Assembly (NCBI GenBank): GCA_018402305.1
Contig: JAGYJE010000006.1
Coordinates: forward strand, 116,949-180,948
DNA length: 64,000 nt
Reading direction: 5' to 3'
DNA from: Puniceicoccaceae bacterium
Lineage (GTDB): Bacteria > Verrucomicrobiota > Verrucomicrobiia > Opitutales > Coraliomargaritaceae
Shown: positions 28,587 through 41,445 of the stretch, piece by piece
Layout of the letters: each line of letters starts with the position of its first letter
How positions within the stretch are numbered: position 1 is the first letter of the stretch
Made by a program: the position numbers and the translations under genes
Notes under the pieces: model-generated
Seen by the model: only the letters and a program-made list of their open reading frames with translations
Told to the model about the DNA's origin: nothing
Databases searched by the model: none

Positions 28587-30545
28587 CTAAAACTCCCAAA
28601 TCACCCCGATCCGGCCGCTGCGTCCTGTTCCGGGATAGAGCGCGTCGGGGGCAAATGCAGTGGATATGTATCTTTTATCAAACAGATTATCTGCAGTTAT
28701 AAAGAGCTCCAGGTTTTCACTCAATGCATAGCGTGCACTTAAATCAAACAGTATGTAATTATCGAGAGTTGCTGCCGTATTTGCAAAATCACCACCAACA
28801 AAGACAGCATCCGTATAGCTCGCGCCGAACGTTAGTGTTATGGGTGCGCTTGGACGATACTTCAATGCGAGACGCAATTTGTGCTCGGGCACCAGGGGAA
28901 CGAATGAACCATCGTAAGCGCCGCCGTTGAATTCAGCCTGCACCCATGTATAGCTAAACATCAACGAAAGCATTTCTGAAAATCTATATTTCATATCAAG
29001 GTCGGCGCCCACGCGGCGTGTTTGGTCCAAGTTGATATTCCCGCTCCCACCGTTGTAGATGATCTCGTCATTCATCCACTGATAGAACATGCGTCCGCCC
29101 AAAGACAGAGCCCCGTAGATCCAATCCGAACCAATCTCCAATTCATGCCCCTTTTCAGCATTCAAATCAAAATTGGTCGTTGGACTGTACGCAGGAGGCA
29201 GATACTGGATGAGTTCATCGGTGGATGCATACCGAAAAAAACGGCGCGCTGATCCATAAACACGCGCTTTATCGCCAATCTGCTGCACCAACCCCAGTGA
29301 CCATGCATAGTGTTCATCATCGACCTGCTCAAGCTTTACCCCGTTTTGGACTCCATCGGTCTGAGCAGACGCTAATCGAATACTAGCGGTGAGATTTAGC
29401 GCTTCGCTCAGGTCCATTCGCCAGGATCCGAAAACCGCCATGGTTTCCCGGTCGAAGTCGGCGTTACCGTAGCTGGCATTCACTTCAATAGCATCTTTAA
29501 AATAATCGAGTCCGGCAGAAGCCGTTATTATCTCCCCCGCATACCTTAGAACAGGATTGAATGCGTGCAGATCATAATCCGTCTGGCTTTCGGAAGAAAA
29601 GGGGTCTAAGTAAAGAGCATAAACCTCCTTGAATACAGAACCACCACTTAAATCGAGTGAAAATTGGTCATTCAAAGATAATCCGACGCCGAAACGAAAA
29701 TAGGCTGTTTTTTCCTCGCCGTAATTAGAGCCTTCCGTCGACTGCTTAAAATTCTCCGCCAACTCGGATCGAGTCAAGGGCCCGGGTAAACCGTATTCGC
29801 TCTCGACTGTACTAATCGAAACAAACCCGCTCAACCAATCTTCAGAAGCCCACGTTAGCTTCAACCCTCCGGCATCAGCTTCATACTGGCTGTTCTCACG
29901 GTAGCCAGCGGTCTCATCGTGCTCAGCATGTACGGAAAAACCAAGATTCCCTTCGCTTCCAGTCAATGCGACCCGCCCATTGTAACTATCGAAACTACCG
30001 AGGCTGACTTGAGTCTGCCCTGAAATTTCATCGGTCGGACGGCGTGTCTTAATCTTAATAACACCACCGGTAGCGTTGTTACCGTAGAGCGCCGATTGTC
30101 CGCCTTTGATTACTTCAACCGACCCAATCAATCCGAGAGGGATTGAAAGCCAATTAATTTGACCAAGATCCGCCGTATTCAGGCGCTGACCGTCCAGCAG
30201 AATGAGCACACGCTGGCCGCTGTTTTCACCGAATCCACCCATTGAAATCTCGGAATTTGCCGCGTTTCCCGAGGACGAACGGAAGTGCAGATTAGCTTCC
30301 GTTTTGAGCAGTTCAACCATATTGGTCGCCCCCGACTTTTCGATGGCGAGCTGATCGATGACCTGTACCCGTGAAGCGATGTTTATGTCCACGTCCATGA
30401 AGCGCGGTGCCGAGACTAACGTCGTGGGCAGTTGGCGCAGCAGCGGATCCTCGCTCTTCGCAGCAGAGCCAGCCGGAAGCAAGCAGAGACAAGCCTTTAG
30501 TGCGGTAATTACAATGGATTGTTTGATTCGAATACGGTTTCCCAT
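28587..30545 (-). CDS. TonB-dependent outer membrane receptor, Fur-linked
   Basis: The ATG at 30545 (MGNRIRIKQSIVITALKA) is preferred over the TTG at 30584, since the latter would leave only about 10 bp to the Fur-like box. The 652-residue receptor has a signal peptide, a plug domain (about residues 40-160; QRVLILLDGQRLN and IGSVEVIKGGQSALYGNNATGGVIKI), and a 22-strand-type barrel ending RSGRIGVIWEF with a terminal Phe. It resembles BtuB/FecA/FepA-type plugs for metal complexes or cobalamin. Cotranscription with a Fur-family gene points to metal or siderophore uptake; the ligand is unknown. No inner-membrane transporter is adjacent. Confidence 0.92.
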   Translation of the reverse strand: MGNRIRIKQSIVITALKACLCLLPAGSAAKSEDPLLRQLPTTLVSAPRFMDVDINIASRVQVIDQLAIEKSGATNMVELLKTEANLHFRSSSGNAANSEISMGGFGENSGQRVLILLDGQRLNTADLGQINWLSIPLGLIGSVEVIKGGQSALYGNNATGGVIKIKTRRPTDEISGQTQVSLGSFDSYNGRVALTGSEGNLGFSVHAEHDETAGYRENSQYEADAGGLKLTWASEDWLSGFVSISTVESEYGLPGPLTRSELAENFKQSTEGSNYGEEKTAYFRFGVGLSLNDQFSLDLSGGSVFKEVYALYLDPFSSESQTDYDLHAFNPVLRYAGEIITASAGLDYFKDAIEVNASYGNADFDRETMAVFGSWRMDLSEALNLTASIRLASAQTDGVQNGVKLEQVDDEHYAWSLGLVQQIGDKARVYGSARRFFRYASTDELIQYLPPAYSPTTNFDLNAEKGHELEIGSDWIYGALSLGGRMFYQWMNDEIIYNGGSGNINLDQTRRVGADLDMKYRFSEMLSLMFSYTWVQAEFNGGAYDGSFVPLVPEHKLRLALKYRPSAPITLTFGASYTDAVFVGGDFANTAATLDNYILFDLSARYALSENLELFITADNLFDKRYISTAFAPDALYPGTGRSGRIGVIWEF

Positions 30546-30594
30546 CGAGCCATCGAAAGGGCCTGGTGAAGCCACACGCAACACTTTTGATTTA

Positions 30595-37962: not shown

Positions 37963-37982
37963 GCTAGTACCAATTTCCCGCA

Positions 37983-38010
37983 GGCCCATCCGACCGGATG
38001 GGCCTTTTTT
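37983..38010 (+). terminator. Rho-independent terminator
   Basis: A perfect 9-bp stem GGCCCATCC/GGATGGGCC with a GACC tetraloop is followed by six T residues. It ends the coiled-coil/lipoprotein transcript and insulates the riboswitch region. Confidence 0.95.
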
Positions 38011-38115: not shown

Positions 38116-38144
38116 TTGACAACCCTACTTCAAACCCCTTTTTC
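38116..38144 (+). promoter_or_regulatory. Candidate promoter of the TPP-controlled receptor
   Basis: A perfect -35 hexamer TTGACA (38116-38121) is followed after 17 bp by a weak -10 (TTTTCT), placing a start site just upstream of the riboswitch. The -10 is poor, so confidence is moderate. Confidence 0.4.
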
Positions 38145-38152
38145 TTGAGGCC

Positions 38153-38253
38153 TTCCTTAGGGGTGACCTGGCATGGGTCTGAGACGTTTCCTTCATACGA
38201 CAGAGGCGATCCCTTCGAACCTGATCCGGTTGACACCGGCGTAGGAAAAGGAA
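38153..38253 (+). promoter_or_regulatory. TPP riboswitch (THI element)
   Basis: The aptamer core is plain: AGGGGTGACC near the 5' side, CTGAGA in the pyrimidine-sensor arm, then AACCTGATCCGGTT, ACACCGGCGTAGGAAA in the pyrophosphate arm. TTCCTT (38153) and AAGGAA (38248) close P1. It binds thiamin pyrophosphate and is 72 bp upstream of a TonB-dependent receptor gene on the same strand. No thi biosynthesis gene follows, so the receptor itself is the regulated gene. There is no T-tract terminator between aptamer and gene. Confidence 0.96.
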
Positions 38254-38295
38254 TGGATCGCTCTCTGAGCGGTACACCTTCAATCGCCCAAGGCC

Positions 38296-38322
38296 GGATC
38301 TCAAACCACACAATTGAGATCC
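38296..38322 (+). promoter_or_regulatory. Hairpin over the receptor's translation initiation region
   Basis: A perfect 9-bp stem GGATCTCAA/TTGAGATCC with a 9-nt loop ends three bases before the ATG at 38326. Its 3' arm contains TTGAG, the only Shine-Dalgarno-like sequence. It could be the expression platform of the TPP riboswitch acting on translation. Confidence 0.6.
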
Positions 38323-38325
38323 AAA

Positions 38326-40449
38326 ATGAAACATAGACTCTGCGCCCTCGCGTTACTCACAACCACCGCAGCTGTCTTCGCACAAGACGAAGAAGCCCCC
38401 GTCCCCACACTCCCTACCACCGTCGTGACCGGTGAACTCTGGGAGTCGGAACTCCAAAAAACCACCGCCAGTGTCACGGTAGTCGGTGCCGAAGCTCTCG
38501 AAAACAACGGTGTGCAGCACTTCGAAGATGTTATCAACACGATCCCGAACCTGACCTGGACCGGTGCCACATCGCGGCCGCGTTACATCCAAATTCGCGG
38601 GGTCGGAGAAAACTCACAATTTGAAGGTGAAACGCCAGATAGCTCGGTAAGATTCCTGATCGACGATCTGGACCTCACCGGTCTCGGCTCAGTCGGCAAT
38701 CTCTTCGACGTGGAACAAGTCGAAGTACTGCGTGGTCCACAGGCCGGTGCTTTTGGGGCCAACGCGGCGGGCGGAGTCGTGCGCATCGTGACCAAAGATC
38801 CCACTCCTTTCTGGACAGGCCAAGCAGAAGCCAGTGTTGGCAACGATAGTCTGCGAGCCGGAGGCGTCGCCGTCGGTGGCCCGCTCCTGCAAAACGACCC
38901 GGAACAACTCTCCTTCCGCTTTGCCCTGCACCGACTGGCACAGGACGGCTTTCGTGATAATGTCTTTTTGAACAAGGACGACACCAATCAGCGCGACGAG
39001 CTCACATCCCGATTCAAGCTCCGCTGGGTTGCGTCTGAGGATTGGGAACTTGACGGCCAGGTTTTCTACGCCGATGCCGAAAACGGCTACGACGAGTTCT
39101 CACTGGGGAATACCGGTTTCAAAACCGCTTCCGATGAGCCGGGTGAAGACGATCAGCAAACCACCGCCGGCAGTTTGAAAGTTCGCTGGTTTGGCAATGA
39201 CCGGTTCGAAGTGACGGCCACGACTGGCTTGGTTCAGACCGACTCAGTTTACAGCTACGACGCCGATTGGGCGGACCCAACCACTGATGGCAACTATGAT
39301 GGTTTTCTCGAAACAGAACGCGACCGCCAGGTTTTTACACAGGAACTTCGTATGGACTCAACCGGGCTCCGCGATTCCCTGGGGTGGATTGATCGTTGGA
39401 CATTAGGTGCCTATTTTAATCATCTGGAAGAAGATACCGATGTGCTTTACACCGAATTCGATGCCACCGCCGCCACTTATCAAAGCAACTATCAAGCGGA
39501 GACCTCTGCCTTTTATGGGCAGGCTGCACACGACTTCTCAGAAACGACACGGCTGATCCTCGGCCTTCGGCTCGAGCACCATTCCATTGAGGCACAATCC
39601 AGCGGCGCCAATTACGGAACCCCCGTCGGCGGAGGGAGCAAGCAATCTGATACACTCTGGGGGGGCAAGTTAACCCTTGAGCATGATCTGAACAAAGCGC
39701 AGACGGTATTTGCCAGCGTCACGCGCGGCTACAAAGCCGGCGGAGCTAACATCGCCAGTTTCACACAGCCCGGAGATCCACTAACGTATGAAAAGGAGAC
39801 ACTGTGGAACTATGAAGTGGGACTTCGCAGCAGTTGGCTGGACGGTGCCGTGGTCTCGCAATTGACCGCTTTCTATCTCCATCGAAACGATGCGCAACTG
39901 CGGGACTCCCAGGGCGCGGGCGGCTTTTTTCGCTACCTTACCGTCAACGGGGAAACGGCAGAGCACTTTGGACTGGAAGGCAGTGCGACGTATTATTTGA
40001 ACTCCGAATGGTCAATCAGCGCCGCCCTCGGCCTTTTAGAGACGAGCCGCGAGGCATACGACGATCCGGGTGGTCGCGTTGCCGCGAGAGATCTCGCAAA
40101 CGCTCCCAGCTTCAATTATAGTACACGCATCAATTACCAAGGCGCAAAGGGACTATTCGGCCACGTCGAACTTTCCGGGCGAGACGACTACTACGAATCG
40201 AACAGCCACAGCGAAAGGCGGGACGCGTTCGCCATAGTGAATGCCAGTATTGGATATCGCTATGAGAACTGGACCTTTACGCTTTGGGCCAGGAATCTTT
40301 TTGATGAATCCTATCAAAAACGGGTATTCTTCTTTGGCAATCGCTTCGACACAAGCACACCGGACCCTTTCGACTTTGAATCTGACCGTCGCTACGAAGA
40401 TCCTGCCAATCCACGTACCCTCGGGATAACGACGAATTATCGCTGGTAA
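38326..40449 (+). CDS. TonB-dependent outer membrane receptor under TPP riboswitch control
   Basis: The start ATG at 38326 (MKHRLCALALLTTTAAVFAQ) gives a clean signal peptide; the track's TTG at 38314 is not needed. The 707-residue receptor has a TonB box-like region (TTVVTGELW), a plug domain (about residues 45-160; ALENNGVQHFEDVI, RYIQIRGVGENSQFEG, VEVLRGPQAGAFGANAAGGVVRI) and a barrel ending TLGITTNYRW with a terminal Trp. The upstream TPP riboswitch indicates uptake of thiamin, a thiamin phosphate or a precursor. It resembles the large iron-receptor-like TonB family in the plug, so the assignment rests on regulation. No inner-membrane thiamin transporter is adjacent. Confidence 0.93.
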   Translation: MKHRLCALALLTTTAAVFAQDEEAPVPTLPTTVVTGELWESELQKTTASVTVVGAEALENNGVQHFEDVINTIPNLTWTGATSRPRYIQIRGVGENSQFEGETPDSSVRFLIDDLDLTGLGSVGNLFDVEQVEVLRGPQAGAFGANAAGGVVRIVTKDPTPFWTGQAEASVGNDSLRAGGVAVGGPLLQNDPEQLSFRFALHRLAQDGFRDNVFLNKDDTNQRDELTSRFKLRWVASEDWELDGQVFYADAENGYDEFSLGNTGFKTASDEPGEDDQQTTAGSLKVRWFGNDRFEVTATTGLVQTDSVYSYDADWADPTTDGNYDGFLETERDRQVFTQELRMDSTGLRDSLGWIDRWTLGAYFNHLEEDTDVLYTEFDATAATYQSNYQAETSAFYGQAAHDFSETTRLILGLRLEHHSIEAQSSGANYGTPVGGGSKQSDTLWGGKLTLEHDLNKAQTVFASVTRGYKAGGANIASFTQPGDPLTYEKETLWNYEVGLRSSWLDGAVVSQLTAFYLHRNDAQLRDSQGAGGFFRYLTVNGETAEHFGLEGSATYYLNSEWSISAALGLLETSREAYDDPGGRVAARDLANAPSFNYSTRINYQGAKGLFGHVELSGRDDYYESNSHSERRDAFAIVNASIGYRYENWTFTLWARNLFDESYQKRVFFFGNRFDTSTPDPFDFESDRRYEDPANPRTLGITTNYRW

Positions 40450-40451
40450 TA

Positions 40452-40470
40452 ATTGAATCATCTATTCAAT
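40452..40470. repeat. Hairpin at the 3' end of RAYT2
   Basis: A perfect 7-bp stem ATTGAAT/ATTCAAT with a 5-nt loop overlaps the RAYT2 stop codon and begins two bases after the receptor stop. It may serve the two convergent genes or be a RAYT-linked repeat. Confidence 0.5.
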
Positions 40471-41445
40471 CACCCGCTGTCGCAAAGCCTTCACCACAGC
40501 TAATCCGCCCCAATCAGCACCCTTCAAGGGGTGCCCGGCCTCTGGCAGCGGGCGTTTGCGCCCACGCTGCCAGAGATCGCGGAAGCCCCGCACGAATTCA
40601 GCCGAGCCAAAGATGGCACCATCGGTAAAATAGCGAATGCGGCAGCGCATGGCGACCGCCCTGGGCAGCACACCGCCCTCCTTCTCCAGGACCTGCAAGG
40701 CCTTTTCACGGCTGATGCGCCCACCCGCATCCGGCTCCGCCCCCTTGCCAAAAAGCAGCATCCGGTGCGCCTGCAGGGCACCGGCACCATCGACCGGGCC
40801 CCCGTAGGCCGACCAAATTCGTTGCAGCCCCCGCACCGCGAGGGCCGAACCGCCCACCGCCTCCGCATAGCCGCACCAGCGGTAGTCCTTCGGGTCTTCC
40901 ACCAACCCCGCCCGAACCGGGTTCAGGTCAATATAGGCCGCCATGGTTTGCAGTGCAAACCCCCGCCCCTCCACCAGGACCGACTTAAAGCGCTCCGCCC
41001 AAAGCGTGCCAAAACGCCCATGGTTCTGGTTGAACCAGATGGAAAAACGCTGTTTGAGCGTCTTCATAAACTCCGAGACATCCCCCATACGCGCCAGCAA
41101 CTGCTCGCGGATCTTTGCCGCATCCTCCCCTCCCGCAGCCAGCTTGCGCTCCAGAACCCGGGCCGAGGCCGTCTGATACTTGTTTGGCTTGGGATAAAGC
41201 ACACGGTAGCGCCGCATTAACTCCGCGTCCGCCAGCGGCCCTGACTCCGGAAAGTGGATCAGCACATGGAAGTGGTTGGACATCAGACAGTACGTCAGGA
41301 TCTCTCCACCCGAAAAGTCCGCCACCTGCCAAAGCATACGGCGAAGCATCTCCTTCTCACGATTTTTAAAAAGCCGCGCCCCACCTACCGCACGTGTCAT
41401 GCAGTGGTAAATCGCTCCCGAATATTTTATCCTGTGTTCACGCAT
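40462..41445 (-). mobile_element. REP-associated tyrosine transposase (RAYT2)
   Basis: A 327-residue paralogue of RAYT1. HUH motif SNHFHVLI (H58, H60) and catalytic-type Y171 in AAYIDLNPVRAG are intact. The insert after the HUH region (about 75-120) and the C-terminal extension (about 190-327, ending in KGADWGGLAVVKALRQRVIE) are shared with RAYT1 and absent from E. coli TnpA-REP. A third shared block, VAMRCRIRYFTDGAIFGSAEFV, recurs in RAYT1 as LRMRIRYFSAGTALGSEEFL. It ends in a hairpin and lies downstream of an AT-rich 19-bp palindrome. There are no terminal inverted repeats, as expected of RAYTs. Confidence 0.88.

Follow-up and report, generated by a model that had tools for sequence, protein, structure and literature searches.

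A TPP riboswitch and a conserved start-site hairpin precede a probable thiamin receptor gene in a Puniceicoccaceae-type bacterium

Overview

The DNA stretch analyzed here (64,000 nt, hereafter the window) carries a TPP riboswitch directly upstream of a gene for a TonB-dependent outer-membrane receptor, and control of this receptor by the riboswitch is strongly supported by conservation of the arrangement across families and phyla. The reading that we favor, and consider probable as a whole, is that the bacterium, of Puniceicoccaceae type and auxotrophic for thiamin, uses this receptor to scavenge thiamin or thiamin monophosphate, and that the riboswitch would control the receptor at translation by means of a leader strand able to pair either with the P4-P5 region of the aptamer or within a hairpin at the start codon. 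The nearest named relatives of the genome are Puniceicoccaceae and Opitutia (Verrucomicrobiota) metagenome bins.

The riboswitch and its promoter region

The riboswitch (RF00059; positions 38,149–38,264, plus strand) scored 71.1 bits in the Rfam scan against a gathering score of 54.3 (E 5.6e-12), and the match is of full length, model positions 1–105 of 105, with all helices present. The complete THI element that a sequence-only reading of this DNA had described, and for which it had proposed a covariance scan with the TPP model as a check, is thus borne out; its figure of 72 bp between riboswitch and receptor is also correct, as the aptamer proper ends with P1 near 38,252, about 73 nt before the ATG at 38,326. 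No other RNA family was matched in the window, and a search of the whole genome (3.1 Mb, 90% complete) gave no further TPP riboswitch. This RNA is predicted to bind TPP.

A −35-like promoter element, TTGACA, is located at 38,116–38,121 on the plus strand, at the very position where the region marked by the sequence-only reading begins. Each of the 35 receptor-linked riboswitches in the family has a TTGAC(A) motif upstream, in 33 cases at a distance of 30–33 nt from the start of the aptamer model; no −10 consensus was recognized in the promoter region of the unit. Further upstream, an intrinsic-terminator-like hairpin (37,982–38,010, plus strand; ten pairs followed by a T-run) parts the unit from the preceding gene. 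The terminator scan, which places this site at 37,982–38,005, gave no other nearby, and the site ends the previous unit.

The receptor gene and its surroundings

The receptor gene (38,326–40,449, plus strand) encodes 707 amino acids with a Plug domain (PF07715, 63.7 bits) and a beta-barrel domain (PF00593, 109.3 bits). A conserved TonB-box-like motif, LPxTVVTG, is found near the N-terminus, where the signal peptide and TonB box were read by eye. The protein scores under every specific NCBIfam receptor cut-off, and the solved siderophore, colicin and pesticin receptors are only distant relatives. Its domains, its motif and its linkage to the riboswitch mark it as a probable receptor for thiamin or thiamin monophosphate.

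No thi gene follows the receptor, as the sequence-only reading had stated: the next genes are a REP-associated tyrosine (IS200-like) transposase on the minus strand (40,462–41,445), directly downstream, and a NupC-type transporter. A second gene with the same N-terminal sequence as the transposase lies on another contig of the genome (contig C4, locus L180, 10,320–11,000), which indicates that the REP-associated transposase is multicopy. The downstream genes vary between genera; operon partners for the receptor were therefore rejected and the unit was taken as a single gene. Elsewhere in the window, which has no second TPP riboswitch, another open reading frame (28,590–30,584, minus strand) is related to the receptor by BLAST.

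Conservation of the riboswitch-receptor linkage

At a threshold of E <= 1e-60, members of the receptor clade were found in 44 of the 223 genomes of the order, and comparison of receptor coordinates with those of the riboswitch search placed a TPP riboswitch directly upstream in 42 of these 44 related receptors. One of the two exceptions, in genome G018, lacks adjacency because of a contig break: the receptor match starts 27 bases from a contig end, and the riboswitch of that genome runs to the end of another contig. The other, in G110, is a true exception. Within the family, 36 of 44 genomes contain TPP riboswitches, most of which precede the receptor and five of which precede thiC. Among further receptors from the order, the class and the phylum, other families included, 15 of 17 have a TPP riboswitch upstream. 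The genes neighboring the receptor change between genera while this linkage stays, which indicates that riboswitch and receptor are kept as one unit. In a near-complete relative (G037; locus L046, contig C3, from 305,216 onward) the receptor is broken by stops or frameshifts and the riboswitch is intact; the broken gene is either a pseudogene or an assembly error.

The best plasmid relative outside the phylum, with 37.5% identity, is encoded in Sulfurovum mangrovi and also has a TPP riboswitch upstream; it is followed in one operon by pnuC and a choline-kinase-family gene, an arrangement which suggests an operon for thiamin uptake and phosphorylation. In the plasmid record (NZ_CP087125.1, locus L175, 2,250–6,560) the receptor is annotated in pieces, and a second TPP riboswitch lies beyond the choline-kinase-family gene. 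Four other plasmid homologues with 27–29% identity (from Chroococcidiopsis, Trichormus, Pseudoalteromonas and Sphingobium) have no TPP riboswitch nearby and were set aside as evidence for that reason. By these counts within the order (42/44) and beyond (15/17), together with the Sulfurovum case, the link between riboswitch and receptor is more than chance, and the sequence-only proposal that a TPP riboswitch governs a TonB-dependent receptor gains support.

A conserved hairpin at the start codon

Between the riboswitch and the gene lies a hairpin, H2 (38,296–38,322, plus strand), with the structure GGATCTCAA-N9-TTGAGATCC. Its nine perfect pairs (−12.1 kcal/mol, z = −4.28 versus shuffles) and its end 3 nt before the ATG agree with the perfect hairpin noted from the sequence alone. 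The same hairpin is kept in four families: genera g1, g4, g5 and g9 of the bacterium's own family, f3, f4 and part of f13. Its loops vary in length and sequence. In 31 distinct leaders, 97.5% of cells are paired and five of the nine pairs show changes on both sides; none of 500 shuffles reached any of these measures, and structures slid along the alignment paired in at most 54%. The double changes amount to six cells, mostly in two divergent leaders (G005 and G020), so they represent few events. H2 is real and is conserved by structure.

The sole bases resembling a Shine-Dalgarno sequence, GAG, sit in the 3′ arm of H2, so that the earlier statement that the hairpin covers the only such sequence is right as to position, but these bases are not what is conserved: in G020 the stem has become GGATTTCAA/TTGAAATCC, by which GAG is lost and the stem kept. 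Across relatives the 3′ arm ends 0–4 nt before the ATG, a near-fixed spacing, and in G045 it overlaps the ATG. Because G020 keeps the stem without GAG and the G045 arm overlaps the start codon, what H2 seems to block is the start region, not the Shine-Dalgarno bases as such. In G007, of genus g2, an unrelated stem (GTGTGATTCT/AGAATCACAC) occupies the position of H2. Many other leaders of family f13 (L104, L112–L118, L166–L172) have a conserved arm of GGGAGT type with the potential to pair with the codons that directly follow the ATG; it is moderately supported that the sequestor of this variant would enclose the start codon.

Conservation and covariation of H2 support translational control by a start-site hairpin, as the sequence-only reading had suggested in preference to transcriptional control. 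The terminator scan gave no terminator-like site after H2, where the sequence AAAATGAAAC has no T-run, and no intrinsic terminator was found before the gene. Could the riboswitch nevertheless act on transcription, with H2 or the OFF fold causing Rho-dependent termination, or a pause, close to the start codon? The E. coli thiC riboswitch offers a precedent, in that its translational effect is joined by a transcriptional one and pausing occurs close to the start codon (PMC5234074); the missing intrinsic terminator and the near-fixed spacing between H2 and ATG, as expected of a start-site block, speak against such a mechanism here, and we regard it as unlikely.

Predicted alternate pairing between aptamer and leader

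Under the translational mechanism that we propose, the nascent leader would, without TPP, pair GATCCGG of the aptamer (38,223–38,229, plus strand: the last base of P4, J4/5 and the 5′ strand of P5) with the switch strand CCGGATC (38,294–38,300, plus strand), which consists of part of the H2 5′ arm and the two C's before it. GGCG (38,238–38,241, plus strand: 3′ side of P5 and J5/4) and AAGG, both of the 3′ half of the aptamer, would pair with the linker, GGCG being the predicted partner of its CGCC (38,285–38,288, plus strand), the inner part of the antisequestor stem. A small hairpin after P1, H1 (38,257–38,273, plus strand), forms the loop end of this stem in a constrained fold; hairpins are visible at the same place in relatives, seen without a count. 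This would undo the aptamer and leave the 3′ arm TTGAGATCC free, along with the start codon (ON). With TPP, the aptamer would be locked and CCGGATC released, whereupon GGATC together with TCAA would pair with TTGAGATCC and close the start region (OFF). The sequence-only reading had proposed a search for alternate pairing between P1 and H2. Complementarity for such an alternate pairing was found, with the P4-P5 strand and the linker as the predicted main partners; P1 was rejected as the main partner of H2, since only AAGG of its 3′ strand joins, through the linker.

The complementarity is conserved. Every one of the 31 leaders allows all seven pairs of the anti-P5 helix, CCGGATC with GATCCGG (100% of cells), and the second helix, GGCG with CGCC, is paired in 88.7% of cells in the same leaders; in slid controls the two antisequestor helices together pair in 11–55%. 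In G005 the aptamer reads GATCCAG and the leader CTGGATT, a co-change that retains the pairing of CCAG with CTGG. Covariation of the anti-P5 helix is by itself thin (one double change; 32 of 500 shuffles did as well), since TPP binding leaves the aptamer side no room to vary.

The start-site hairpin and the overlapping anti-P5 helix were also scored jointly, both being required together, with dinucleotide shuffles as the null. The joint score of the bacterium's own leader was reached by none of 3000 shuffles; of the same number, 0–8 reached it in six other leaders, 27 in a variant from f13, and 133 in a leader from f21. Several leaders of genus g2 of family f1 and of f11, f13, f21 and f22 gave no significant joint score. 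For four leaders linked to thiC in the bacterium's own family, p values were 0.63–1. The joint score was used in place of a pair-count metric on nascent minimum-energy folds, which was dropped as too permissive (single-leader p 0.02–0.41).

When RNA from P4 to the H2 5′ arm was folded in the ten leaders in which the script found its anchor motif, the alternate stem or a variant of it was the minimum-energy structure; these ten come from several genera and families. For the nascent form of the bacterium's own leader, ending before the H2 3′ arm, the alternate stem reaches −53.8 kcal/mol versus −41.4 to −42.1 for the aptamer, a gap of about 12 kcal/mol; in the full-length leader without ligand the ON and OFF forms are near balance (−54.2 and −51.7). 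The unconstrained fold (−67.6) holds neither the full aptamer nor the antisequestor, but contains H2 and a third pairing, of GCGATCC with GGATCGC of H1, which is absent from some genera. Because of this third pairing, the energies of the own leader alone cannot decide the mechanism, and it is the comparative evidence, not single-sequence energies, that carries it.

The same free fold bears on the idea of H2 as a constitutive element acting at the start site or on mRNA stability, with regulation proceeding without the antisequestor. H2 is present in that minimum-energy fold of the full leader and is strongly conserved on its own, as this idea would have it. The two bases preceding H2 (38,294–38,295), however, have no partner in the hairpin; 29 of the 31 leaders read C-C there, and the other two C-T. 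These columns pair with P5 of the aptamer in 31 of 31 leaders, the G005 co-change included, and the nascent RNA holds the alternate stem at minimum energy in diverse lineages. A purely constitutive H2 is accordingly quite unlikely in our estimation.

Thiamin metabolism and the likely cargo

Searches of the bacterium's own genome gave no match for ThiC, ThiE or thiamin pyrophosphokinase (TPK), and across the 44 family genomes ThiC was not found in 38, ThiE not in 37 and TPK in none. With ThiC, ThiE and TPK undetected, the organism is probably a B1 auxotroph unable to join precursors, and the cargo of the receptor is likely thiamin or thiamin monophosphate, not a precursor. Of the sequence-only description of a thiamin or precursor receptor, the first part is thus kept, extended to thiamin monophosphate, and the second is disfavored by the missing ThiE. 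That the receptor takes up HMP, thiazole or some other compound is very unlikely: riboswitch linkage by itself leaves the substrate unfixed, but where ThiE has no match the known enzyme would not be there to join precursors, and the Sulfurovum operon combines its receptor with pnuC and a kinase gene.

ThiL is present in 42 of the 44 family genomes, including that of this bacterium, where it is located on contig C23 (82,840–83,757; locus L174). Retention of ThiL where ThiE, TPK and ThiK were not detected, a pattern common to most of the family, is the basis for a narrower reading, in which the imported compound is thiamin monophosphate and not thiamin itself; we consider this possible, if on the unlikely side. 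If true, these bacteria would be specialists for phosphorylated B1.

No thiamin kinase was found in the genome: ThiK and the Sulfurovum kinase were tried as the missing enzyme and rejected, as neither search gave a match. Nor was a TPP-linked inner-membrane carrier found. The PnuC-family gene of this bacterium was rejected as a thiamin carrier because the kinase gene next to it looks, in relatives, like NadR, and it more likely serves nicotinamide riboside uptake.

Relation to known systems

Riboswitch-linked receptors are already known in other bacteria, and the present case is a well-supported new one. OMthi of Bacteroides thetaiotaomicron (BT2390), likewise a TonB-dependent receptor, has a TPP riboswitch, and there is genetic evidence that it serves thiamin uptake: when it is deleted along with the biosynthetic operon, the cell needs more thiamin. 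Its riboswitch-linked transcript shows no significant response to thiamin (PMC5613172). This insensitivity of the transcript is compatible with translational control, without proving such control. OMthi and the receptor described here are likened by riboswitch linkage and receptor class. They differ in that OMthi belongs to Bacteroidota, often shares an operon with pnuT and tnr3, and has a host that also makes thiamin, whereas the present receptor stands alone in an apparent auxotroph.

A putative B1 receptor, omr1, has been described for SAR86, Flavobacteriales, Cellvibrionales and Opitutales (PMC10881298, PMC12442306); in the first two of these groups a TPP riboswitch lies near it (PMC10881298). 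Here the likeness is one of receptor class and riboswitch linkage; the passages on omr1 describe neither an anatomy of the leader nor a mechanism. The remark in the sequence-only reading that outer-membrane thiamin uptake is little described in the group is only partly true, as omr1 transcripts of Opitutales were already reported in 2025 (PMC12442306). In having a riboswitch directly upstream across its orthologues, the receptor clade appears, from genome comparison, to be of the OMthi or omr1 kind. It also touches the PnuT-containing TPP-regulated operons, in that its Sulfurovum relative sits in such an operon; the PnuC-family gene of our bacterium differs in lying elsewhere, beside the NadR-like-looking kinase gene.

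The proposed switch follows a known logic. In E. coli thiC, sequestration of the start site is opposed by an alternate pairing, the anti-P1 stem, that unmakes the aptamer (PMC5234074), and thiM uses the same opposition of sequestration and alternate pairing (PMC3280964). The likeness lies in ligand-OFF regulation, a stem that sequesters the start site, and a mutually exclusive pairing in nascent RNA that unmakes the aptamer; the difference is that thiC employs an anti-P1 stem, whereas the P4-P5 strand and the linker would be the main partner here. A partial literature search returned no description of an anti-P4/P5 platform conserved across these families; such a platform is a detail of a known mechanism.

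In summary, the riboswitch linkage ties to B1 a receptor clade that extends across the order and into other Verrucomicrobiota. It also exposes a gap after the receptor, in the carrier and kinase, that is, in the route from imported vitamin to thiamin monophosphate that is missing in these apparent auxotrophs. Together with the leader described above, it provides a specific anatomy for how B1-auxotrophic Verrucomicrobiota may control their outer-membrane B1 uptake.
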